In this document: positions 9,265 to 31,383 of the stretch, piece by piece | Layout: each line of letters begins with the position of its first letter | Numbering within the stretch: the first letter of the stretch is position 1 | Assembly (NCBI GenBank): GCA_028351415.1 | Contig: JAOMJV010000010.1 | Location: forward strand, 1-39,075 | Length of the DNA stretch: 39,075 nucleotides | Source: Candidatus Nitrosopumilus sp. | GTDB taxonomy: Archaea > Thermoproteota > Nitrososphaeria > Nitrososphaerales > Nitrosopumilaceae | Reading direction: 5' to 3' | Position numbers and translations under genes: made by a program | Notes under the pieces: generated by a model | Told to the model about the DNA's origin: nothing | What the model saw: the letters and a program-made list of their open reading frames with translations, nothing else | Database searches by the model: none

Positions 9265-9491
9265 AATATACTCTCTATGGTTTTTTGTTTGGAATGTGGA
9301 TTTTGATAATTATTGGTGGTGCAATTGTTACCCTTGTTTTGGGACCTATCTCAATTAGTCAATATGGCGAATTTAACTCATTTTTTGGTTCTGTGATTCA
9401 GGGAAGTGTTGCAATCATTTTAGTTGTAATTTGGATTTTAATTTTATCTACATTAAAAAATTGGATTTTTAAAAAAGAATTAAAATTTTAA
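9261..9491 (+). CDS. Small two-helix membrane protein of unknown function
   Basis: The 76-residue protein has two clear transmembrane helices, roughly residues 5-29 and 45-66, with a short polar loop (ISQYGEFNS) between them and a basic tail NWIFKKELKF. I do not recognise a family. It starts at a TTG that overlaps the TGA of the upstream glycosyltransferase, the same coupling as the rest of the operon, so it may be an accessory subunit of that enzyme; this is inference. The stop codon falls within TTAA, which also supplies the stop codon of the convergent acyltransferase gene. Confidence 0.7.
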   Translation: MKYTLYGFLFGMWILIIIGGAIVTLVLGPISISQYGEFNSFFGSVIQGSVAIILVVIWILILSTLKNWIFKKELKF

Positions 9492-9964
9492 CTCTCTATC
9501 CATTTTTTTCTTTTTTTATCATATTCTTCTCTACTATATCTTAGAAAAGCTGGTGACCCTGCAACAACCATATTTTCATCAACATCTCTTGTTACAATTG
9601 CACCCATTGCAACCACGCTATTTTTCCCAATTGTAACCCCTGCTTTAATCACTGCACGTGCGCCAATTATTGCATTATCTTCAACTGTAATTCCTGCCAT
9701 TTTATCACACATTGGAAATGGATCATTTGTTAAAACAGCCGCTGGACCGATGAACACATTTTTTCCAATTCTAGATAATGGTGGAATGTATGCTTGTCCT
9801 TCAATTTTTGTATTATCTCCAATTTTTACATCATAATCAATATGTGCATGGGATCCAATTTTTACATTATCTCCAATTTTTACATTATCTCCTACATATG
9901 TAAAATGCCAGATTTGGACATTTTTTCCAATTATTGCTTTTTCAGAAATAAAATTTGTAACCAT
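9488..9964 (-). CDS. Hexapeptide-repeat acyltransferase (WbpD/WlbB-like sugar N-acetyltransferase)
   Basis: The 158-residue protein is a left-handed beta-helix acyltransferase. Repeats such as IGKNVQIW, VGDNVKIGDNVKIG and IGDNTKIEGQ run through the N-terminal two thirds, followed by IGPAAVLTNDPFPM, IIGARAVIKAGVTIGKNSVVAMGAIVTRDV and the terminal VAGSPAFLRY. The order and the NDPFP segment resemble UDP-2-acetamido-3-amino-sugar N-acetyltransferases (WbpD, WlbB). The acyl donor would be acetyl-CoA. The adjacent Gfo/Idh/MocA dehydrogenase matches the WbpB role, so the pair may build a 3-acetamido sugar for glycan synthesis. A DegT-type aminotransferase (WbpE role) is not seen here. It is the last gene of a leftward operon, 4 bp after the Trm112-like gene. 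Confidence 0.85.
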   Translation of the reverse strand: MVTNFISEKAIIGKNVQIWHFTYVGDNVKIGDNVKIGSHAHIDYDVKIGDNTKIEGQAYIPPLSRIGKNVFIGPAAVLTNDPFPMCDKMAGITVEDNAIIGARAVIKAGVTIGKNSVVAMGAIVTRDVDENMVVAGSPAFLRYSREEYDKKRKKWIES

Positions 9965-9968
9965 TACC

Positions 9969-10238
9969 TTACAAATGCCATGGATTTGCGTCCGTAATAA
10001 TTTTTTCAGGCAATTTATCTTTATTATTTTTTAAAAATTCAATTTCATGTTTTTTGTCTCTTAATTCATCTGGAAGCATTATTGGAATTTCCTCCATAAT
10101 TGGATAAAATCTAGAACATTTTGAACAAAATATTGCACCCTCAATTATCACGCCATCTTTTTCCTTAATTTCAAATAATTCTAAGGGATAATTCTTGTCT
10201 ATTGGACATGCTAGTATCTCCATCATTGTTTTATTCAT
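9969..10238 (-). CDS. Trm112-like zinc protein
   Basis: This 89-residue member of the Trm112/UPF0434 family is typically an activating partner of class I methyltransferases acting on tRNA, rRNA and release factors. Visible motifs are LACPIDK (C11), FCSKCSRFYPI (C38, C41) and EEIPIMLPDELRD. Only three of the four possible Cys zinc ligands are present; archaeal members often lack the second. A further segment with an NPWHL end follows the core. The ATG overlaps the end of the upstream dehydrogenase by four bases, so it is translated within a sugar-nucleotide operon rather than next to a methyltransferase, which is noteworthy. Free-standing function cannot be deduced. Confidence 0.8.
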   Translation of the reverse strand: MNKTMMEILACPIDKNYPLELFEIKEKDGVIIEGAIFCSKCSRFYPIMEEIPIMLPDELRDKKHEIEFLKNNKDKLPEKIITDANPWHL

Positions 10239-11170
10239 TTTAAATCCAGATAAATTGGGGTTCCTTTTTGACTAGATAAAAGTGCCGCTTCGGCAATTTT
10301 TGTAACATTTACTGCTTCTTGCGATTTAACAACTTGTTTAGTTTTATCCATAATGGAATCTAAGAAATTTTGAATTTCTAATCTTAATGGTTCTTGTTTT
10401 TCATTTTTGATAGTTTGGGATTCCTCTTCTTTTTCAATTATGATTTCTTGAGTGAGAAAATCCGATGAAATAATTGCTTCTGTACATACTGCAGTAAATT
10501 TTCTAATTTTTTTTGGTGTGATCCAATTTGATGAAATAATTGCCACTTTGTTATTTTTATACCCTAACATAATATTTGCAAAATCTTCATACTCATGTTT
10601 AATTTTTCCTGCACGTGCAAAAATTACTTGGGGCATATCATTAAACAACCAATTTGCAGTATCGATATCATGAACTGAAGTATCGTGGATAATTCCAACA
10701 TCTTTGATATGTAGTGGTATTCTGTTCTCTCTATGAAATTCAAGCATTACTAAATCTCCAAATTTTTTTTCATTCACTACTTTTTTTACTGCATCTACTG
10801 CTGGATTGAATCTTTCAATATATCCGCAAGTAAGAATCACTTTATTTTTTTCTGCAAGTCTAGCAAGTTTTTCACCATCTTCCGATTTGTATGTCATTGG
10901 TTTTTCTACAAACACATGTTTTCTAGCTTTCACCAATTTCATTGCAATTTCTGTATGTGTTGATGTAGGTGTTACTACAATTGCACCATCAAATTCTTCA
11001 GAATTTAATAATTCATCTAATGATCCATAATGATTTATGGAATATTTCTCTCCATACTCTTTACTTATTTTATAATTAGTATCGCATATTGCTGTAAGTA
11101 CGCCTAATTCTGATAGAATTCTAGCATGGTTCCCCCCCCATCCGCCAACTCCAATTTGAACAATTTTCAT
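10235..11170 (-). CDS. Gfo/Idh/MocA-family NAD(P)-dependent sugar dehydrogenase (WbpB-like)
   Basis: The 311-residue oxidoreductase has an N-terminal Rossmann fold starting VQIGVGGWGGNHARIL. It carries the family motif FVEKPMT at about residue 93-99, where the Lys is catalytic. The C-terminal substrate domain contains GYIERFNPAV and the DTSVHDIDTANW segment with the conserved Asp and His. Best functional guess is oxidation of a UDP-N-acetyl sugar at C3 for a diacetamido sugar, supported by the WbpD-like acyltransferase two genes downstream; inositol dehydrogenase-like activities are alternatives. The ATG follows the ilvE stop codon with no spacing, and its end overlaps the Trm112-like gene. 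Confidence 0.85.
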   Translation of the reverse strand: MKIVQIGVGGWGGNHARILSELGVLTAICDTNYKISKEYGEKYSINHYGSLDELLNSEEFDGAIVVTPTSTHTEIAMKLVKARKHVFVEKPMTYKSEDGEKLARLAEKNKVILTCGYIERFNPAVDAVKKVVNEKKFGDLVMLEFHRENRIPLHIKDVGIIHDTSVHDIDTANWLFNDMPQVIFARAGKIKHEYEDFANIMLGYKNNKVAIISSNWITPKKIRKFTAVCTEAIISSDFLTQEIIIEKEEESQTIKNEKQEPLRLEIQNFLDSIMDKTKQVVKSQEAVNVTKIAEAALLSSQKGTPIYLDLK

Positions 11171-21282: not shown

Positions 21283-22008
21283 GTGAATTTGTTGTCTGAA
21301 GAAAAAAAAGAGTCTGAAGTAGAAGTAAAAACTACTGAAAATTCCGTATCTGAAAAACCACCCGTTGAAGATACTAAAAAAACTGAAGATGCAAAAATAG
21401 AGGCTGAATCTAAAGCAGCTCAGGAAGCAGCATCTAAGGTAGAGGCAAATTCAAAAGCAGTTGCTGAAGCCGAAGCTGCAGTGCAATTAGCTCTTGAAAA
21501 AGCAAACGCTGCAAGAGCAGAATTAGAAATATCTGCAGAAGAAGAATACAAAGCAATTGCTGCTGAAGTTAAAGCTGATACTACAAAAAAATCTGATTTT
21601 ACATTTAAACGAAAAGGTGAAGAAATTTTTAGACGAGAAATGGGTGAACCTGAATTTTGGTTAGATAAAAAAGATAGATTTCCAAGACCTATCCTTACAC
21701 AAGATCAACAAGAATCTATTACAAGAGTTGCAGAAACCCCTCAGGATCAAACTCCAAAATATGATCCACAACACATTCTCAGTCCTGAACATAATGGTGT
21801 TTCAAATTATGAAAATGGTGTAAATTCTTTCTTAGATGAATTAAAATCTAAACTTACTACACAAAAAAGTGATCCCGAATCAACTGCCCAAGAAATACTT
21901 GCAACAGAAAATGAAATTACTTATTTGGAATCTATACATGAAAATTTCTATATTGGAATGAATGTCTTCCGAACAGCAAAAGGTGGACGGGATAAGATTA
22001 ACGCATAA
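21283..22008 (+). CDS. Charged coiled-coil protein of unknown function
   Basis: The 241-residue protein is not recognised. Residues about 1-40 are acidic and Lys/Glu/Thr-rich. About 40-95 is an Ala/Glu/Lys helix (KAAQEAASKVEANSKAVAEA) predicted to form a coiled coil. The C-terminal half is globular-looking, with EEIFRREMGEPEFWLDKKDR, SPEHNGVSNYENG and LESIHENFYIGMNVFR. No signal peptide or membrane segment is present. The start is GTG at 21283; TTG at 21292, giving MSEEKKES with AGGTGA five bases upstream, is an equally good choice. It ends 14 bp before the hemA homologue, so the two are probably co-transcribed. Confidence 0.72.
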   Translation: MNLLSEEKKESEVEVKTTENSVSEKPPVEDTKKTEDAKIEAESKAAQEAASKVEANSKAVAEAEAAVQLALEKANAARAELEISAEEEYKAIAAEVKADTTKKSDFTFKRKGEEIFRREMGEPEFWLDKKDRFPRPILTQDQQESITRVAETPQDQTPKYDPQHILSPEHNGVSNYENGVNSFLDELKSKLTTQKSDPESTAQEILATENEITYLESIHENFYIGMNVFRTAKGGRDKINA

Positions 22009-22022
22009 TTAGGTGATATGAT

Positions 22023-23099
22023 ATGGAACACGTAATTTTTGATGTAATGAATACGAGAGTAACTTTCAAGAATATCCCCATACATGAATTATCTAAATTT
22101 GCTTTCAAAGATGTCGGTGTTGCATGTGAAGAATTTAAGAAAATTCCTGGTGTTGATGAATGTATTATTATTCAGACTGCCAGTAGAATTGAAATTTTTA
22201 CAGTAAGTAATACTGAAAATATTGATTCTCCTGATGCACGAAGAGCTGAGGGTAAAACTTTGATTTTAAATCAAGTTAAAAATACATGGATCTCATTAAC
22301 AAAATTAGACGAAATTGATGTTGATCATTTTGATCAAACTATTGAAGTTTACAAAAGTGACGATGTCTATCTTAATCTTTTACGCTTAGGATCTGGTATA
22401 GACTCATTTGTTGTTGGTAAACAGGAAGTTTATGATGAAATAGTTCAATCATTATCTCATGCTAAATCTGCAGGTACTTCCGGAACTATTCTCAATAAAC
22501 TATTTGAAAATGTAATTCGACTATCTACTCGAATGAGAGATACTACTGGAATTGCAAAAGATGTTATTTCACTTGGAGATATTGCAGTAAAATTAGTTGA
22601 TGAAAAAGCCGGATTAGATTCAAAGAAAAAAATATTGTTAATCGGTACTGGTAATTCTGCTGCTCTAGTTGCTAAATGTCTTAATAAAAAAGAATTTTCT
22701 TATGACGTTACAAGTAGAACTTTAGAACGTGCAACTGGATTTAGTACAATTGTTGGTGGAAATCCTATAAATTTTGATGATGCTTTATCTACTTTTGATA
22801 AATATGATATTATTTTTGTTGCAACAACATCTGACTATTTCCTAATTACATTTGAAAGAATTCGACTTGTAATGGAGGCAAAGAAGAAAGGTACATTGAT
22901 TTTAGATTTATCTGACCCAAGAACTGTGGATGAAGGAATTTCTGCTTTACCTGGAATTAAATTATTGTTTAGAGATCAAATTGCTGAAATTTATGAAGAA
23001 AGTGTAAAAGATAGAATTACAATTGTTCCTGCAGTTGAAAAAATTATAGAAAAAGAATTACCTGTATTATCTGCTAGAATGAAAAGATTAGATGCTTAG
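22023..23099 (+). CDS. hemA: Glutamyl-tRNA reductase homologue lacking the catalytic cysteine
   Basis: HemA normally reduces Glu-tRNA to glutamate-1-semialdehyde for tetrapyrrole synthesis. The 358 residues follow the family plan: N-terminal catalytic domain, FVVGKQEVYDEI, RMRDTTGIAKDVISLGDIAV, the NADPH-binding ILLIGTGNSAALVAKCL, LILDLSDPRTVDE, and a shortened dimerisation end. The nucleophile motif, usually S/TCNRxE, reads TASRIE at residues 52-57, with Ala53 in place of Cys. The later GExQI-type motif is GKQEV. Cys47 is nearby but not at the active position. It could be an atypical active enzyme, an inactive paralogue or a regulatory protein. AGGTGAT at 22011-22017 provides a well-placed ribosome site. 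Confidence 0.8.
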   Translation: MEHVIFDVMNTRVTFKNIPIHELSKFAFKDVGVACEEFKKIPGVDECIIIQTASRIEIFTVSNTENIDSPDARRAEGKTLILNQVKNTWISLTKLDEIDVDHFDQTIEVYKSDDVYLNLLRLGSGIDSFVVGKQEVYDEIVQSLSHAKSAGTSGTILNKLFENVIRLSTRMRDTTGIAKDVISLGDIAVKLVDEKAGLDSKKKILLIGTGNSAALVAKCLNKKEFSYDVTSRTLERATGFSTIVGGNPINFDDALSTFDKYDIIFVATTSDYFLITFERIRLVMEAKKKGTLILDLSDPRTVDEGISALPGIKLLFRDQIAEIYEESVKDRITIVPAVEKIIEKELPVLSARMKRLDA

Positions 23100-23345: not shown

Positions 23346-24188
23346 TTATCCGTAGGATTCGTATTTAATTCCAAAACTACCGTCAGATTTCTTTTCATGT
23401 TCTGTGACAAAACCTTTAGAATCCAAGTTATCAATCACACCATCGATTGTTCCTTGATATCCACAAATGTAAATAATTGAATTTTCTGGTGTCAGTTCCT
23501 CCCCTACCATTTCTTCTATTGGCGATAAGCCTGTTTTTTTATCTGCTTTAAAAAATGATTCAACTCTACCCACATGACCGTTCCAAGATCTATTGAAAAA
23601 TTCTTTTGGTCTACTAATTGCTGCTCTGTATCTGAAATTCCATTTATCCCTCCCATTTTTTTCACTTTCTAATTCCATATCGGTTAAAAGACGTTTGTAA
23701 CTTAATTCATCCACATAACTTGCTCCGTGTAAAACTATGACTTCTCTACTATCCTTAGTATCCTGGAAATGTTTTGCAAATGCAACAAATGGTGCTAAAC
23801 CTGTTCCGCCACCTACACAAATTACTCTTCTATTGTCTTCTTTACCGTTGTGTAATTTATCGCTAATTAGTAATGCTGCCCCAGTTGGATCTCCAAGGGT
23901 AACTTCGTCTCCAACACTGAGATAAAATAATTCAGTTGTTACACGACCTGGAAGTGGTTTTCTAACCCATCTAATTACAAATTCAAAATAATCTCTATTT
24001 TCAGCATGTGATGCAATTGAGTATGCTCTTCTAACTACTTTTTTTTCTGCTGGAATTGGAAGACCAATTGTTAAAAATTGTCCCGTTTGATATTCTGGCA
24101 TTCCGTTCTCAGGAACTAATCGTATGATTACTAGATCTTCTTTTAGTAACTCTCTGTAGACAACTTTTGCCTTCATTTCAGATACCAT
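23346..24188 (-). CDS. Ferredoxin-NADP+ reductase-type flavoprotein (paralogue 2)
   Basis: The 280-residue protein is a close paralogue of the one at 12815-13660, sharing runs such as FVIRWVRKPLPGR, VLHGASYVDELSYK and GRDKWNFRYRAAISRP. FAD motif RRAYSIASH, NAD(P) motif GGGTGLAPFV and IYICGYQGTIDGV are all intact, and it also ends KYESYG. The paralogues differ around the second half of the FAD domain (DPTGAAL here, KPTGRAL there) and in the loop before the CG motif (KADKKTGLS here). Those changes could separate NADP/NAD or ferredoxin preference; this cannot be read from sequence. ATG at 24188 is used; a second in-frame ATG is four codons later. Confidence 0.88.
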   Translation of the reverse strand: MVSEMKAKVVYRELLKEDLVIIRLVPENGMPEYQTGQFLTIGLPIPAEKKVVRRAYSIASHAENRDYFEFVIRWVRKPLPGRVTTELFYLSVGDEVTLGDPTGAALLISDKLHNGKEDNRRVICVGGGTGLAPFVAFAKHFQDTKDSREVIVLHGASYVDELSYKRLLTDMELESEKNGRDKWNFRYRAAISRPKEFFNRSWNGHVGRVESFFKADKKTGLSPIEEMVGEELTPENSIIYICGYQGTIDGVIDNLDSKGFVTEHEKKSDGSFGIKYESYG

Positions 24189-25065: not shown

Positions 25066-25147
25066 AAAAAATAATTATCTCTTCGTAATTTAAGTGAAGA
25101 AAATTTTTGTATTGAAAGCATAAATAACAACAAATAAGATCGTGTTT

Positions 25148-26269
25148 GTGAGTGGAAAAGACGAATCACTTTTTAGTAAAAGTGCTTTGATGGGAACTAA
25201 ACCTGGAAAACAAATCATAAAACAAGGTTTATTCAAATCAAAAGGATTCAAGCAGTTTAATCAATACAAGCAAGAAGCTGAAGATACATTCCCTGCATTT
25301 GCCCAAAGATTTGCAAAAAACCTTTTTGATCAAATTAATGCTGATAACTCTCCAAATACAACTCAACAACAATTTGCAGAAGAAGTTGGTTCTACAGAAA
25401 TTATTTTAAATGCATCTGAAATTGAGCCTATAAAATCCAAATTACAAGATTTTGATACTTTACATGATAGAGTTCTTAGAATTTTAAATTCAAATTTTGT
25501 TAAAATGACATTCCCTGTTTTTAATGGTCTTTTTGACGCATCTACAGATTATTTTAAAGATGACAAAAGTACCACTATGAGGGAAGACATTGTTGATGGT
25601 CATATCATTGCAATTGATCTTAGTGAGCCCATGGATAGAATTGTAGACAAAGATGAAGATTTAGAATATTTGGATGATTACAAATTAATGAATCCATATA
25701 TCTTGAAACTTGCCAGAGAAAAAATTTCAAAAGGTGGTGAGGATGTACTCAAAGAATTTGAAGAAGGTTTCAAACAAGCAAGAATTGGACAATATCTTGA
25801 TACAAAATTAAAAGATAAACCTACGGAGATTACCGAAGAAGAATTAGTTGAAAGCTACAAAAAATATCGTTCTGTAATGGGAACTGCTGGTAGAAACATG
25901 GCCTTAAATCGTGCACCTTTAGCTGATATCTTTTACACTGGAATGGCAAAAGCAGCTGAATCTGTTGGATGCGGAAATGAAATTGAAGATAGTATTAGAG
26001 ACAGAGCTGCAAAAATTCCCTCTTGGCCATTATTTTATTCATTAAAAATGAATGATGCAAAAAGTGGATTTGAAGAAACAATGAATCATAGCGAATCATA
26101 TCTAAGTGAAGCAAGAACTGCACTTGAAAAATTACCTGATAATTTTTCACATACAAAGTTTTTAGAATTTCTATTTCTTACTGTTGAGCATTATAACCAA
26201 TTTTGGTATAAAAAATTACAACAAGAAAACATCTGGTCAGATTTGAACAAAAATCTTCCAACCAAGTGA
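25148..26269 (+). CDS. Conserved-looking protein of unknown function coupled to rfcL
   Basis: The 373-residue protein is soluble, helix-rich and not recognised. It contains EAEDTFPAFAQRFAKNLFDQ, the stretch VKMTFPVFNGLFDASTDYF, and a C-terminal helical part SYLSEARTALEKL with FLTVEHYNQFWYKKL. No Walker, zinc or catalytic motif is visible. The GTG at 25148 is preferred because CATAAATAAC (25119-25128) is centred about 25 nt upstream; an earlier GTG (25142) would be too close. Its stop lies 8 bp before the preferred rfcL ATG, so the two are probably co-translated. A replication-related role is possible but only by context. Confidence 0.75.
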   Translation: MSGKDESLFSKSALMGTKPGKQIIKQGLFKSKGFKQFNQYKQEAEDTFPAFAQRFAKNLFDQINADNSPNTTQQQFAEEVGSTEIILNASEIEPIKSKLQDFDTLHDRVLRILNSNFVKMTFPVFNGLFDASTDYFKDDKSTTMREDIVDGHIIAIDLSEPMDRIVDKDEDLEYLDDYKLMNPYILKLAREKISKGGEDVLKEFEEGFKQARIGQYLDTKLKDKPTEITEEELVESYKKYRSVMGTAGRNMALNRAPLADIFYTGMAKAAESVGCGNEIEDSIRDRAAKIPSWPLFYSLKMNDAKSGFEETMNHSESYLSEARTALEKLPDNFSHTKFLEFLFLTVEHYNQFWYKKLQQENIWSDLNKNLPTK

Positions 26270-26277
26270 TAAAATTG

Positions 26278-27435
26278 ATGTGGTCTGAAAAATATCGACC
26301 TCAGATTATTTCTGATATGGTTGGTAATGAGGAGCCTCGTGCAGCCATAATGGAATGGTTTGCAAAATGGAAAAAAGGAACAAAACCTCTTTTGGTCGTG
26401 GGGCCCCCTGGAATTGGGAAAACTACTATTGCATATCTTTTGGCTAAACAATTTGGTTATGATCTGATTGGCCTTAATGCAAGTGATGTTAGAAGTAAAT
26501 CTCAAATTAATGAAATCCTTGTACCTGTTTTAGGCAATGTCAGTGTTTTAGGAACTCCTATGATCTTTATTGATGAGGTTGATGGTATTCATGGCCGTGG
26601 GGATTATGGCGGTGCTGCAGCACTTGTTGATATTTTGAAAAAACCAAATGTGCCCATTTTACTTGCTGCAAATTTTGATGATTCAGACAAAATGAAGAGT
26701 ATTAAAAAAGTAACCACAACAATCTCTTTTAAAAAAATACCGCCACGTCTTTTGCGTGTTTATTTACATCATATTTTAACAAAAGAAAATACAAAACTAA
26801 GTCCTGGCTCATTAATCAAAGTCATTGATAAATCTCAAGGTGACATTCGTTCAATGATTAATCTAACACAGTCTTTGCTAACTGGATTCAATCCTCCGAC
26901 AGAAACTTCTTTTGAAAGTATAAACATTGAAGATGGAATAAATGCATTTTTCAAAGCAAAATCTATTCAAGAAGCTAGAGGTGTTTTATATTCAATACAA
27001 ATTGCCCCTAGAGACAAAATTAATGCATTTTATTCTAGTATAGTGAGTAGTGATCTAGATAGTGCTACACTTGGAAAATATTTAGAAGTTATTTCAAATG
27101 CTGATATGTTACTTGGAAAAATTATGAAAACACAAAATTGGAGATTACTACGTTATCTTAATGATATTTTAATTAATTTATATGAAAAAGATGACCGTAT
27201 ACGATATTCTAAATATAATTTATCTTGGCCTTTACTAAATAGAATTCGTTGGGATGGTGCTAAAATTAAATCGTTATCTTCTATAATGGCAAAAAAACTA
27301 CATCTTTCTTCCAGTGCATTTGTAACATTATGCTTGCCCTATCTTTTATTTTGTATTAAAAATAAGACTTTGGAATTAGAACTGGAAGAAACTTTTGGTG
27401 CTATTATTGATAAGGAGATTGAATTGATACAATGA
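26278..27435 (+). CDS. rfcL: Replication factor C large subunit
   Basis: This is the large clamp-loader subunit. The 385-residue protein starts MWSEKYRPQIISDMVGNE (RFC box). Walker A VVGPPGIGKTT is at about 41-51, GLNASDVRS follows, Walker B MIFIDEVDGI is near 97-106, and the C-terminal collar ends LEETFGAIIDKEIELIQ. Many archaeal RfcL proteins are longer and end in a PCNA-binding QxxLxxFF motif; none is seen here. The ATG at 26278 is chosen, with GTGAT seven bases upstream; a GTG at 26266 overlapping the preceding stop is the alternative. The stop overlaps the next gene's ATG. Confidence 0.94.
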   Translation: MWSEKYRPQIISDMVGNEEPRAAIMEWFAKWKKGTKPLLVVGPPGIGKTTIAYLLAKQFGYDLIGLNASDVRSKSQINEILVPVLGNVSVLGTPMIFIDEVDGIHGRGDYGGAAALVDILKKPNVPILLAANFDDSDKMKSIKKVTTTISFKKIPPRLLRVYLHHILTKENTKLSPGSLIKVIDKSQGDIRSMINLTQSLLTGFNPPTETSFESINIEDGINAFFKAKSIQEARGVLYSIQIAPRDKINAFYSSIVSSDLDSATLGKYLEVISNADMLLGKIMKTQNWRLLRYLNDILINLYEKDDRIRYSKYNLSWPLLNRIRWDGAKIKSLSSIMAKKLHLSSSAFVTLCLPYLLFCIKNKTLELELEETFGAIIDKEIELIQ

Positions 27436-27743
27436 GTTGGATAAAAATCCCCATGAAATTTCCAGGAACCTGCATTGTTTGTAATGATAAAATTGAAGTC
27501 AATGAAATTGGACTCTGGTCAAAGGGATCTGGTGTTAAACATGAAAAATGTGCCCAAACCAATGAATTGAAATGCATTGTTTGTGGTTCTTCTGCTGGAT
27601 GCTCTCAATGTGAATTTCAAGATATTTGTGATATTCCAAATGTATCCCAATTATGCATATGTAAGAAATGTGGTGATGAAACGAATGCCTTTGATTCGTA
27701 CCAAAAATCATCTAAAAAGAAATTTTCTATTCTAAATTCTTAG
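27432..27743 (+). CDS. Cysteine-rich zinc-binding protein downstream of rfcL
   Basis: The 103-residue protein has 11 Cys. C14-x2-C17, H37 and C40 form a likely CCHC zinc site resembling PARP/topoisomerase-type fingers (GLWSKGSGVKHEKC). A second group, C48, C51, C57, C60, C66, then C75, C77, C80, could bind one or two more zinc ions or an iron-sulfur cluster. The last 20 residues are Lys/Ser-rich. Its ATG overlaps the rfcL stop by four bases, so it is translationally coupled to the clamp loader. I do not recognise the family; a nucleic-acid-binding accessory role is inference from the fingers and context. Confidence 0.72.
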   Translation: MSWIKIPMKFPGTCIVCNDKIEVNEIGLWSKGSGVKHEKCAQTNELKCIVCGSSAGCSQCEFQDICDIPNVSQLCICKKCGDETNAFDSYQKSSKKKFSILNS

Positions 27744-27821: not shown

Positions 27822-29369
27822 ATGCACTCTGAAAAGATTGATGAATATACTAAAAATAACAACATATCATTACAAGGGGGCGGTCAAGATCGTATTAGTG
27901 CTCAGCATGAGAAGGGTAAACTAACTGCTCGTGAAAGGATTGATCTTTTACTTGATGTGGGAACTTTTGTTGAAATTGATCCATTAACAACTCACCATTA
28001 CCATGAATACGATATGCAAAAAAAGAAATTTTTTACTGATGGTGTAGTTTGTGGTTATGGAAATGTTTCTGGAAGACAAATTTTTGTTTATGCTTATGAT
28101 TTCACTGTTCTAGGTGGAACATTAAGTCAGATGGGGGCTAAAAAAATTACTAAATTAATGGATCATGCTTTAAACACAGGTTGCCCTATTATCGGTATTA
28201 TGGATTCTGGTGGTGCTAGAATTCAAGAAGGAATTATGAGTCTTGATGGATTCGCAGATATCTTTTACCATAACCAATTAGCTTCTGGAGTAATTCCACA
28301 AATTACTGCAAGTGTTGGTCCATCCGCAGGTGGTTCTGTATATTCTCCTGCAATGACTGATTTTGTTATTATGGTTGACAAAATTGCAAGTATGTTTGTT
28401 ACTGGACCTGATGTTGTTAAAACTGTATTAGGTGAAGAAGTGTCATCTGACGAACTTGGTGGTGCAATCACACATGGTTCAAAAAGTGGAGTTGCTCATT
28501 TTGTTGCTGAAAATGAATACGAATGCATGGATTACATTAAAAAATTAATTTCCTTCTTACCTCAAAATAATTCTGAACAACCACCTAAACTTACAACTGA
28601 TGATGATCCAAATAGATTGGATCATAATTTAATTAATATAATTCCTGAAAATGCTTTGCAACCTTATGACATGAAAGAAATTATTCATTCCATTGTTGAC
28701 AATCACGAATTTTTTGAAGTTCATGAATTATTTGCATCAAACATTATAGTTGGATATTGTAGATTAAATGGAAATGTTGTTGGAATTATTGCCAATCAAC
28801 CAATGCATCTTGCAGGTGCACTAGATATTGATTCATCAAATAAAGCATCACGTTTTATTCGATTCTGTGACGCATTTAATATTCCAATAATCACTTTAGT
28901 AGACACACCTGGTTACATGCCAGGTTCTAATCAAGAGCATAATGGAATCATTAGACATGGAAGTAAACTTCTTTATGCATATTGTGAAGCAACTGTACCA
29001 AGAATTACATTAGTTATTGGCAAAGCATATGGTGGTGCATACATTGCAATGGGAAGTAAAAATCTTAGAACCGATGTAAATTATGCATGGCCAACTGCTA
29101 GATGTGCTGTTTTAGGTGGAGAGGCAGCTGTAAAAATTATGAATAGAAAAGATCTTGCTGCTTCTGATAATCCTGAATCTCTTAAAAAAGAATTAATGGA
29201 TGAATATACGCAGAAGTTTGAAAATCCTTACGTTGCTGCATCTCACGGAACTGTTGATAATGTAATTGATCCTGCTGAAACAAGACCTATGTTAATTAAA
29301 GCACTTGAAATGCTTGCAAATAAAAGATCTAAACAATTACCTAGAAAACATGGGAACATCAATCTGTGA
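27822..29369 (+). CDS. pccB: Acetyl-/propionyl-CoA carboxylase carboxyltransferase subunit
   Basis: This is the carboxyltransferase that moves CO2 from carboxybiotin to acetyl- or propionyl-CoA. The 515-residue fused alpha-beta crotonase-fold protein has the family sequence HEKGKLTARERIDLLLD at the start, MDSGGARIQEG at about 127-137, ASVGPSAGGSVYSPAM at about 165-180 and, in the second half, TLVDTPGYMPG and GKAYGGAYIAMGS. Its oxyanion-hole glycines are intact. It is followed within three to six bases by the biotin carboxylase gene and then the carrier protein. In autotrophic Thaumarchaeota such a three-subunit enzyme performs both carboxylations of the 3-hydroxypropionate/4-hydroxybutyrate cycle; which acyl-CoA is favoured here is not visible. 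Confidence 0.95.
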   Translation: MHSEKIDEYTKNNNISLQGGGQDRISAQHEKGKLTARERIDLLLDVGTFVEIDPLTTHHYHEYDMQKKKFFTDGVVCGYGNVSGRQIFVYAYDFTVLGGTLSQMGAKKITKLMDHALNTGCPIIGIMDSGGARIQEGIMSLDGFADIFYHNQLASGVIPQITASVGPSAGGSVYSPAMTDFVIMVDKIASMFVTGPDVVKTVLGEEVSSDELGGAITHGSKSGVAHFVAENEYECMDYIKKLISFLPQNNSEQPPKLTTDDDPNRLDHNLINIIPENALQPYDMKEIIHSIVDNHEFFEVHELFASNIIVGYCRLNGNVVGIIANQPMHLAGALDIDSSNKASRFIRFCDAFNIPIITLVDTPGYMPGSNQEHNGIIRHGSKLLYAYCEATVPRITLVIGKAYGGAYIAMGSKNLRTDVNYAWPTARCAVLGGEAAVKIMNRKDLAASDNPESLKKELMDEYTQKFENPYVAASHGTVDNVIDPAETRPMLIKALEMLANKRSKQLPRKHGNINL

Positions 29370-29375
29370 TTAATG

Positions 29376-30863
29376 ATGATTGAGAAAGTACTTATCGCTA
29401 ACAGGGGAGAAATTGCTTTACGTGTAATTAGAACTTGTAAAGCACTTGGAATTAAGACAGTTGCTGTTTATTCTGACGAAGATCGTAATTCAATGCATGT
29501 TAAACAAGCATCTGAATCATATCATATTGGTGATGCAGCTCCTGCTAAATCATATCTTAATCAAGAAAAAATTCTAGATGTAATGCTATCATCTGGTGCA
29601 GATTCAGTTCATCCCGGTTATGGTTTTCTATCTGAAAACGATGATTTTGCAAGACTTTGTGAAAAAAATAAAATTATTTTTATCGGTCCATCTGCTGATT
29701 CAATGAATCTTTGTGGTGATAAAATGAAATGTAAAGCTGCAATGTTAAAAGCACAAGTTCCGACTGTTCCTGGAAGTCCTGGTTTAGTTAAGGATGCAGA
29801 TGATGCAGAAAAAATTGCTAATGGTATTGGATATCCCGTAATGTTGAAATCTGTTTATGGTGGAGGCGGTCGTGGAATTAGAATTGTAACTAATGATAAA
29901 GAATTACGTGATGGTTTTGAGTCTGTAACTGGAGAATCTATTGCAGCCGTAGGAAAATCTGCAATACTTGTTGAAAAATATTTAGAAAAAACACGACATA
30001 TTGAATATCAATTTGCTAGGGACATACAAGGCAATGCCGTTCATATATTTGAAAGAGAATGTTCTATTCAAAGACGTAATCAAAAATTAATTGAACAAAC
30101 TCCTTCTCCAATTGTTGATGAAGAAACAAGAGCACGTATTGGTGAATCAGTTTGTAATGCTGCACATGCCGTTGATTATACTAATTTAGGTACTGCCGAA
30201 TTTTTACGAGCTGATAATGGTGAATTTTATTTTATTGAAATTAATGCTAGATTACAAGTAGAACACCCTATTACTGAATTTGTTTCTGGATTGGATTTAG
30301 TTAAACTACAATTAGATATAGCAAATGGGGAGCCAATTCCTTTCAAACAAAATGAATTAAAAATGAATGGATATGCAATTGAGTGTAGAATTAATGCTGA
30401 AGACACCTTCTTGGATTTTGCTCCTTCAACTGGACCTGTTCCAGATGTGACTATTCCTTCAGGACCAAGTGTTAGATGTGATACCTACCTTTATCCTGGT
30501 TGTACAGTTTCACCATTTTATGATTCACTTATGGCAAAACTCGTTACATGGGGTCAAACTTTTGAAGAATCAAGAACTAGAATGCTTTCTGCATTAAATG
30601 ACTTTTACATTGAAGGAGTTGAAACTTCTATTCCTTTGTATAAGACAATTTTAAACTCTGATGAATACAAAAATGGTGATCTTTCCACTGATTTCTTAAA
30701 ACGTTATGATATGATTGATAGGTTAACTGAAGATCTTAAGACAGAAAAAGAAAATAAAAGCGAAGCAGCTTTAGCAGCCGCAATTATTCATTCTGAATAC
30801 TTTAAGAGTCGTGTACAAAATACTACTAACCATAATTCTAATTGGAAAAATAAGCTGGATTGA
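29376..30863 (+). CDS. accC: Biotin carboxylase subunit
   Basis: This ATP-grasp enzyme carboxylates biotin using bicarbonate and ATP. The 495-residue protein begins MIEKVLIANRGEIALRVIR. It has GYGFLSEN, the glycine-rich ATP loop YGGGGRGIR at about 161-169, the catalytic region HIFERECSIQRRNQK and EINARLQVEHPITE at about 288-301. The C-terminal domain keeps GYAIECRINAED. The ATG at 29376 gives a five-base gap from GTGAT; an ATG three bases earlier is possible. It ends four bases before the start of the carrier-protein gene. Pyruvate carboxylase subunit A is a close relative, but the pccB-like neighbour favours an acyl-CoA carboxylase. Confidence 0.95.
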   Translation: MIEKVLIANRGEIALRVIRTCKALGIKTVAVYSDEDRNSMHVKQASESYHIGDAAPAKSYLNQEKILDVMLSSGADSVHPGYGFLSENDDFARLCEKNKIIFIGPSADSMNLCGDKMKCKAAMLKAQVPTVPGSPGLVKDADDAEKIANGIGYPVMLKSVYGGGGRGIRIVTNDKELRDGFESVTGESIAAVGKSAILVEKYLEKTRHIEYQFARDIQGNAVHIFERECSIQRRNQKLIEQTPSPIVDEETRARIGESVCNAAHAVDYTNLGTAEFLRADNGEFYFIEINARLQVEHPITEFVSGLDLVKLQLDIANGEPIPFKQNELKMNGYAIECRINAEDTFLDFAPSTGPVPDVTIPSGPSVRCDTYLYPGCTVSPFYDSLMAKLVTWGQTFEESRTRMLSALNDFYIEGVETSIPLYKTILNSDEYKNGDLSTDFLKRYDMIDRLTEDLKTEKENKSEAALAAAIIHSEYFKSRVQNTTNHNSNWKNKLD

Positions 30864-30867
30864 TGAT

Positions 30868-31383
30868 ATGACCAATTACAAAATACAAGATATTGAAAAA
30901 TCATTTAATGGACATATAGTAAAAAACTTTGGAAATAATAATTTTATAATTAAAATTAATGATGATGAACATGAGCTAAAAATTATTACTATGAATTCAA
31001 ACAAAATTGAATTTATTTTAAATCAAACATATCATAGGGCAAAATATCTTGATCAATCTACAAACGAAATGAATATTGTAATTGATAATGTTCCGATGAC
31101 AATTAATTTACATACTCATTTTGACAAAATTGTTTACAAAAATTCTGGCGGTGGCGGTTCTGGTTCAATAAAAGTAGGATTGAAAAGCCAAATTCCAGGA
31201 AAGGTAGTTTCAATTTCAGTTGCAGATGGAGATTCTGTACAGAAAGGTGATGTTGTTTGTACTTTGGAATCTATGAAAATGCAAGTTCAGATTAAGGCAC
31301 ACAAAGATGGAGTTGTAAATTCTATTAAAGTTAAAGAAACCGGAACTGTTGCTAAAGGCGATTTAATTGCAAATATAGAATAA
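30868..31383 (+). CDS. Biotin carboxyl carrier protein
   Basis: The 171-residue protein carries biotin between the two catalytic subunits. The C-terminal biotinyl domain has IPGKVVSISVADGDSVQKGD and LESMKMQVQI, where K137 is the biotin site about 35 residues from the end. The N-terminal part (about 1-85) is a beta-rich domain probably docking to the partner subunits. Between them lies a SGGGGSGS linker. The ATG at 30868 is chosen; an upstream frame opening overlaps accC and would add an unlikely hydrophobic tail. Lipoyl carriers are excluded by the MKM motif and the operon. Confidence 0.94.
   Translation: MTNYKIQDIEKSFNGHIVKNFGNNNFIIKINDDEHELKIITMNSNKIEFILNQTYHRAKYLDQSTNEMNIVIDNVPMTINLHTHFDKIVYKNSGGGGSGSIKVGLKSQIPGKVVSISVADGDSVQKGDVVCTLESMKMQVQIKAHKDGVVNSIKVKETGTVAKGDLIANIE

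Follow-up and report, generated by a model that had tools for sequence, protein, structure and literature searches.

A cysteine-less glutamyl-tRNA reductase paralogue inherited with a coiled-coil partner and an FNR-like paralogue in marine archaea

Genomes of marine ammonia-oxidising archaea (Nitrosopumilus, Nitrosarchaeum and Nitrosopelagicus) contain a protein family, referred to here as HemA2, that is by its sequence derived from glutamyl-tRNA reductase (GluTR, HemA) and yet lacks what defines a GluTR. HemA2 is inherited as one unit together with a predicted coiled-coil protein encoded directly upstream (the long partner) and with a paralogue of an FAD/NAD(P)-binding oxidoreductase (FNR-b). 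Because a key catalytic residue has been lost, and because the unit is co-inherited near a CO2-fixing carboxylase, HemA2 is probably not a haem enzyme; it may instead serve carbon fixation. We reached this family from a stretch of 39,075 nucleotides of Candidatus Nitrosopumilus sp. (assembly GCA_028351415.1, contig JAOMJV010000010.1), which is referred to throughout as the window. An original prediction, made from the letters of this stretch, had pointed to a HemA homologue with Ala in place of the catalytic Cys; what goes beyond it is that the loss is a family-wide trait, that the partner is kin to a carboxylase-operon protein, and that the pair is accompanied by an FNR-like paralogue.

A GluTR fold without the nucleophile

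In the window, hemA2 (22023..23099, + strand) is an open reading frame of 358 aa encoding a Cys-less GluTR paralogue, whose product matches GlutR_N (PF05201, 9.2e-25) and Shikimate_DH (PF01488, 3.6e-20) in Pfam, that is, a catalytic-type N domain followed by an NADPH-type Rossmann domain, with no Pfam match to the C-terminal dimer domain (GlutR_dimer, PF00745). When an AlphaFold2 model of this protein (mean pLDDT 81.2) was submitted to Foldseek, the best matches were GluTR structures (1gpj, 4n7r, 5che and 5yjl; closest 1gpj), and HemA2 shares with these structures, and with the proteins of the NCBIfam hemA model TIGR01035, both the fold and the order of the first two domains. The window protein scores 183.9 bits against TIGR01035, below the cut-off of 209.55. 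The long-form HemA2 of locus L048 carries PF00745, and the cut-off is passed by the Cys-less long forms of L048 (6857-8128; 232.5 bits) and L107 (4630-5874; 241.7 bits); genomes can therefore seem to carry two hemA genes, and automatic annotation would name such a Cys-less protein glutamyl-tRNA reductase.

According to two reviews (PMC7242693, PMC3778395), the active-site Cys of GluTR attacks glutamyl-tRNA and NADPH reduces the thioester, and the second (PMC3778395) describes this Cys as conserved in all GluTRs analysed; HemA2 is a family without the Cys held in print to be conserved. The nucleophile position (Cys48 of Methanopyrus kandleri) is taken in the window by Ala53 (GCC, 22179..22181, + strand), and the codons at 22176-22193 (ACT GCC AGT AGA ATT GAA) read T52 A53 S54 R55 I56 E57. 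We grouped 153 distinct HemA-like proteins by neighbour: 112, the window's included, have the partner adjacent upstream (HemA2), and 41 are without a partner. Cys was found at position 53 in 0/111 readable partner-adjacent proteins (one of the 112 rows is truncated at this position) vs. 41/41 proteins without a partner. The codons bear out the T-A-S-R-I-E reading of the original prediction, and in the alignment the loss of Cys is a fixed trait of the family. Sequencing error as the source of Ala53 is ruled out by the absence of Cys common to these 111 proteins. In HemA2 the position is filled by A in 86 proteins, S in 18, T in 2, G in 2, Q in 2 and P in 1, and with such variability no other nucleophile is fixed. 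Cys47, which had been put forward as a residue that might fill the active-site position, found no support, since it is present in 109/112 HemA2 proteins but also in 33/41 canonical ones, and two HemA2 proteins have Val there. By its sequence, HemA2 is unable to form the Cys thioester or to follow the known GluTR chemistry.

The second deviation foreseen in the original prediction, an altered GE motif reading GKQEV, is likewise present in the reading frame, where Lys133 (22419..22421, + strand) takes the place of the canonical Glu; across the alignment, this Glu was found in 0/112 HemA2 vs. 41/41 canonical proteins. The window protein also differs from GluTR in having Asn118 (22374..22376, + strand) for the canonical His (41/41) and in having no dimer domain. 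Residue 118 varies in HemA2 (H 62, N 41, R 6, P 2, Q 1; n=112); it corresponds, with the numbering carried over through the 1gpj alignment, to His84 of M. kandleri, a residue expected of a GluTR. HemA2 otherwise shares with GluTR Gln51, Arg55 and Glu57 (kept in all 111 readable rows), Ser128 (108/112) and the Rossmann glycines G208 and G210 (112/112), so that the T, R and S of the substrate pocket are retained, and the window protein contains R-M-R-D-T-T-G-I, in agreement with the R-x-R-x-x-T-G-I motif predicted to be intact. R232, which adjoins the expected phosphate site, is variable (R 81, K 21, M 8). Unlike GluTR, HemA2 has other gene neighbours (see below) and several elements of its own, invariant motifs at the surface among them: an insertion at residues 62-80 (22206..22262, + strand; low model confidence), in which D71 and R73 are invariant (112/112) and R74 is present in 107/112; a D-H-F-D-Q stretch at residues 101-105 (22323..22337, + strand), absent from the canonical pattern, of which H102, D104 and Q105 each occur in 112/112; and Asp271 (22833..22835, + strand), found in 111/112 rows (the remaining one being a gap) at a position where 40/41 canonical proteins have Pro.

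Canonical haem genes and the descent of HemA2

The genome of the window (78% complete, 50 contigs) also encodes a canonical HemA (G000:C12:91355-92353) that is 48% identical to HemA2, has QTCNRIE, the GE loop and the dimer domain PF00745, and scores 346.5 bits against TIGR01035, above the cut-off. Its neighbours are hemB (porphobilinogen synthase, PF00490) and a gene for a CysG N-terminal-type protein, and hemL lies above its own cut-off at C12:74857-76113. A second HemA, hemL and hemB, named in the original prediction as genes to look for, are therefore all present, and HemA2 as the only HemA of this genome is ruled out. With canonical hemA, hemB and hemL in place, the haem-pathway role is already filled, and a normal HemA beside hemB, with hemL in the same genome, marks HemA2 as a paralogue that has departed from GluTR chemistry. 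The original prediction had offered two options, a repurposed or regulatory paralogue accompanied by another HemA or a protein with different chemistry; of these the former holds, as a repurposed paralogue with another HemA in the same genome, and different chemistry is a possibility.

A HemA tree built from 59 selected rows united all Cys-less proteins in one clade (100/100) that has a long stem (0.56) and is nested among HemAs from the family of the window, and this clade held when the motif columns were removed (SH-aLRT 100, by a quick method). We are unsure of its exact branching point, given some weak inner nodes and long branches. Canonical-only genomes (G037, G082) stand among the relatives of HemA2 carriers, which implies either loss or misplacement. 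HemA2 proteins with the dimer domain occur in genera g2, g10, g128 and g134, and as Cys is absent from these long forms too, its loss preceded truncation, which took place in the Nitrosopumilus-type lineage and once more in G339 and G383. HemA2 is under purifying selection, with dN/dS of 0.11-0.22 (vs. 11 close relatives; same-genome pairs), and canonical HemA gave 0.04-0.08 (three pairs). The former range rules out a decaying pseudogene. A viral origin of HemA2 was also rejected, as no relative was found in viral_contigs.

The partner, FNR-b and the carboxylase operon

The partner gene (21283..22008, + strand) ends 14 nt upstream of hemA2 and encodes a 241-aa, Ala/Glu-rich predicted coiled coil. 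That linkage to a coiled-coil protein might bear on function was part of the original prediction, and the partner indeed became our main lead. It comprises an IFxRxMxEPEF segment and a C-terminal domain in common with a small protein of the carboxylase operon. The segment, I115-F125 in the window (IFRREMGEPEF; 21625..21657, + strand), is found as IFxRx[ML]xEPEF in 113/113 distinct long partners and in 0/8 complete short relatives. We surveyed 300 genomes of the class, and among the matches listed we picked out 120 HemA2 places by hand according to score (partial ones in G412, G477, G393, G443 and G547 included); the partner stands directly upstream in 117/120 of these places among the matches listed, and the three without it are all at contig ends. 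Conversely, every one of the 119 long partners counted among the matches listed is in a HemA2-bearing genome. Draft genomes G498, G530, G532, G544 and G463 have no place counted as HemA2, and G544 holds a long partner cut at a contig end, which was counted within the 31 'short' places among the matches listed. A partner match was also obtained in 80/80 named loci, which come from Nitrosopumilus, Nitrosarchaeum, Nitrosopelagicus and other genera; in one of them only 48 aa are left, where the contig ends.

In relatives that have no HemA2, short kin of the partner (L117-L124, with 90-144 aa) are encoded immediately ahead of pccB, the carboxyltransferase gene, in 8/8 of these loci and in 26/30 further loci, mostly from other families; the four misses consist of two weak matches, one contig end and one locus in which no carboxyltransferase was within reach. 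Both the short and the long form are carried by six g2 genomes among the matches listed. The short protein (L117-L124, L207-L234), for which no Pfam family was matched, precedes the carboxyltransferase gene in most of the sampled genomes of ammonia-oxidiser type and is itself a candidate for an accessory subunit of the carboxylase. Six proteins (partner and short forms) searched against Pfam at E up to 10 gave no match to the actinobacterial acyl-CoA carboxylase epsilon family (ACC_epsilon). The short relatives resemble the actinobacterial epsilon subunit, as it is portrayed in PMC13118682, in that they are also encoded with a carboxyltransferase gene, and the likeness is one of gene position. 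Unlike the short form, the long partner of the window does not stand before the carboxyltransferase gene, and the window has no short copy preceding pccB. A PDB sequence search with the partner returned no useful match and no GluTR-binding protein, and a fold search with its model (mean pLDDT 67) returned no match. GluTR-binding protein and the GluTR complexes of Arabidopsis are a precedent for GluTR-fold proteins working in complexes with a helper protein, from which the archaeal partner differs in being a predicted coiled coil that matched no such protein in the PDB sequences.

FNR-b (23346..24188, - strand) is an FAD/NAD(P)-binding oxidoreductase paralogue that shares PF00970 and PF00175 with the ferredoxin-NADP reductase family but forms a separate paralogue clade, in the HemA2 genomes tested, and its scores against the reductase models of NCBIfam fall far short of the cut-offs. 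Where a named locus extends 1500 nt or more beyond HemA2, an FNR gene was found downstream in 69/69 cases, starting 208-3648 nt past HemA2, on the opposite strand in 53/69 and on the same strand in 16/69; given the opposite strand in 53 loci, FNR-b does not form a single operon with HemA2. In 73/73 loci with an FNR match, FNR-b was a closer relative of the protein than the other FNR copy of the window. At least two FNR copies were present in 18/18 HemA2 genomes, vs. a single copy in 20 of the 22 HemA2-less genomes (none in G082; two in G227, the second only 45% identical), and the copies adjoining HemA2, together with one unlinked copy of G287, formed one clade (99/97). A third FNR paralogue was observed in Nitrosopumilus (G000:C12:66231-67037, G192:C1:946949-947755) and also in G068 and G108. 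Between hemA2 and FNR-b, at ~23107 on the minus strand, lies an ORF of 62-75 aa that is 73-79% identical in L035-L037, L039, L051 and L052.

The carboxylase operon of the window consists of pccB (27822..29369, + strand; PF01039), encoding the carboxyltransferase subunit of an acetyl/propionyl-CoA carboxylase, the biotin carboxylase subunit gene (29373..30863, + strand) and that of the biotin carboxyl carrier subunit (30811..31383, + strand; start uncertain). HemA2 and pccB are 4.7 kb apart here, with four genes between them, the group in Nitrosopumilus now lying upstream of pccB at this distance. In six genomes the HemA2 trio stands directly before the carboxylase operon: loci L048, L105, L106, L107, L108 and L110 present, in this order, a Zn-protein gene, the long partner, HemA2, FNR (opposite strand) and pccB; in genus g2 (L049, L050, L116), the partner-HemA2 pair is away from this operon. 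Most simply, the carboxylase-operon protein would have given rise to the long partner, and HemA2 would have been placed beside the partner there. Two further observations concern these neighbourhoods: two genes at 25142-26269 and 27432-27743, beside the one for the replication factor C large subunit, have no Pfam match although most of the neighbouring loci contain them too, and in L038 (G239, 9478-10277) two ORFs, of 121 and 122 aa, make up what is a broken gene of the inositol-monophosphatase type.

Possible functions of HemA2

The reading that we favour, though tentatively, makes HemA2 a neofunctionalised paralogue of GluTR that has given up the reduction of glutamyl-tRNA and would have a sensing or assembly role in an NADPH-binding module linked with the CO2-fixation cycle's carboxylase. 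The partner would dock on the carboxylase through its C-terminal domain and hold HemA2 via the EPEF segment, and HemA2 would read or use NADPH at the carboxylase. Weighing against this reading are the 4.7 kb between HemA2 and pccB in the window, the g2 pairs away from the operon, the opposite strand of FNR-b in 53/69 loci, the variable R232, the small protein's lack of any Pfam match and the poor partner model. Residues 65-80 of HemA2 and ~105-135 of the partner, both conserved and of low model confidence, are a candidate mutual binding site that may fold on contact. It is possible, if rather unlikely, that the neighbourhood is historical only and that HemA2 has a function unrelated to it, e.g. 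as a reductase acting on some unknown aldehyde or keto acid: the pair did move off the carboxylase operon in g2, and in Nitrosopumilus it shifted by several kb, but partner and FNR-b accompanied HemA2 in these moves, and the three were only found together in the genomes compared, among the matches listed. We regard as unlikely a regulatory pseudoenzyme of tetrapyrrole/cobalamin synthesis that would bind glutamyl-tRNA, HemA or HemL without turnover; descent from HemA and the retained Gln51, Arg55, Glu57 and Ser128 would fit such a protein, but HemA2 sits apart from the hemA-hemB locus, its dimer domain is gone from the lineage of the window and, through a further loss, from G339 and G383, and it neighbours a relative of a carboxylase-operon protein and an FNR, not hem genes. 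Highly improbable is a GluTR working by an altered route in which Ser, Thr or water replaces Cys, as Ser (18) or Thr (2) at position 53 in 20/112 rows might suggest; Ala, Gly, Gln or Pro in the other readable rows leaves no conserved nucleophile, Glu133 is never kept, His at residue 118 varies, and a normal HemA is already at hand in the window's genome.

HemA2 might, alternatively, be a working reductase of an acyl-CoA such as malonyl- or succinyl-CoA, using NADPH supplied through FNR-b; with a substrate that is a thioester from the start, it could do without the Cys. The Rossmann glycines kept in every HemA2 would be expected of such an enzyme, the pocket residues Arg55 (111/111 readable) and Ser128 would suit a carboxylate-bearing substrate, Asp271 and His102 are new and invariant, and the carboxylase, before whose operon HemA2 stands in some genomes, makes malonyl-CoA. 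In Nitrosopumilus maritimus, malonyl-/succinyl-CoA reductase activities have been measured and the genes were yet to be identified as of 2018, according to a model paper of that year (PMC6038301). We nevertheless find this reading quite unlikely: relatives with the same carboxylase operon have no HemA2 among the matches listed, and one strong asd_EA-family gene with one weak second match was found in 40/40 genomes. These HemA2-less relatives presumably run the same CO2-fixation cycle. Replacement of an asd-type malonyl-CoA reductase by HemA2 was rejected, since asd-family counts are equal in 18 HemA2 and 22 HemA2-less genomes. The fuller proposal, in which HemA2 of marine ammonia oxidisers would represent a new, Cys-independent class of acyl-CoA reductase descended from GluTR and acting on malonyl-CoA (or succinyl-CoA), held at the carboxylase by the partner, fed by FNR-b and using NADPH, we consider improbable. 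A sensing or assembly role is favoured over a reductase acting on a ready-made thioester because HemA2-less relatives have the same operon and the asd-family counts are equal.

Our literature search of open full texts returned no title or abstract on a Cys-less archaeal GluTR paralogue. The co-inherited trio of HemA2, long partner and FNR-b points to a part of CO2 fixation that has yet to be described in these abundant archaea of the sea.
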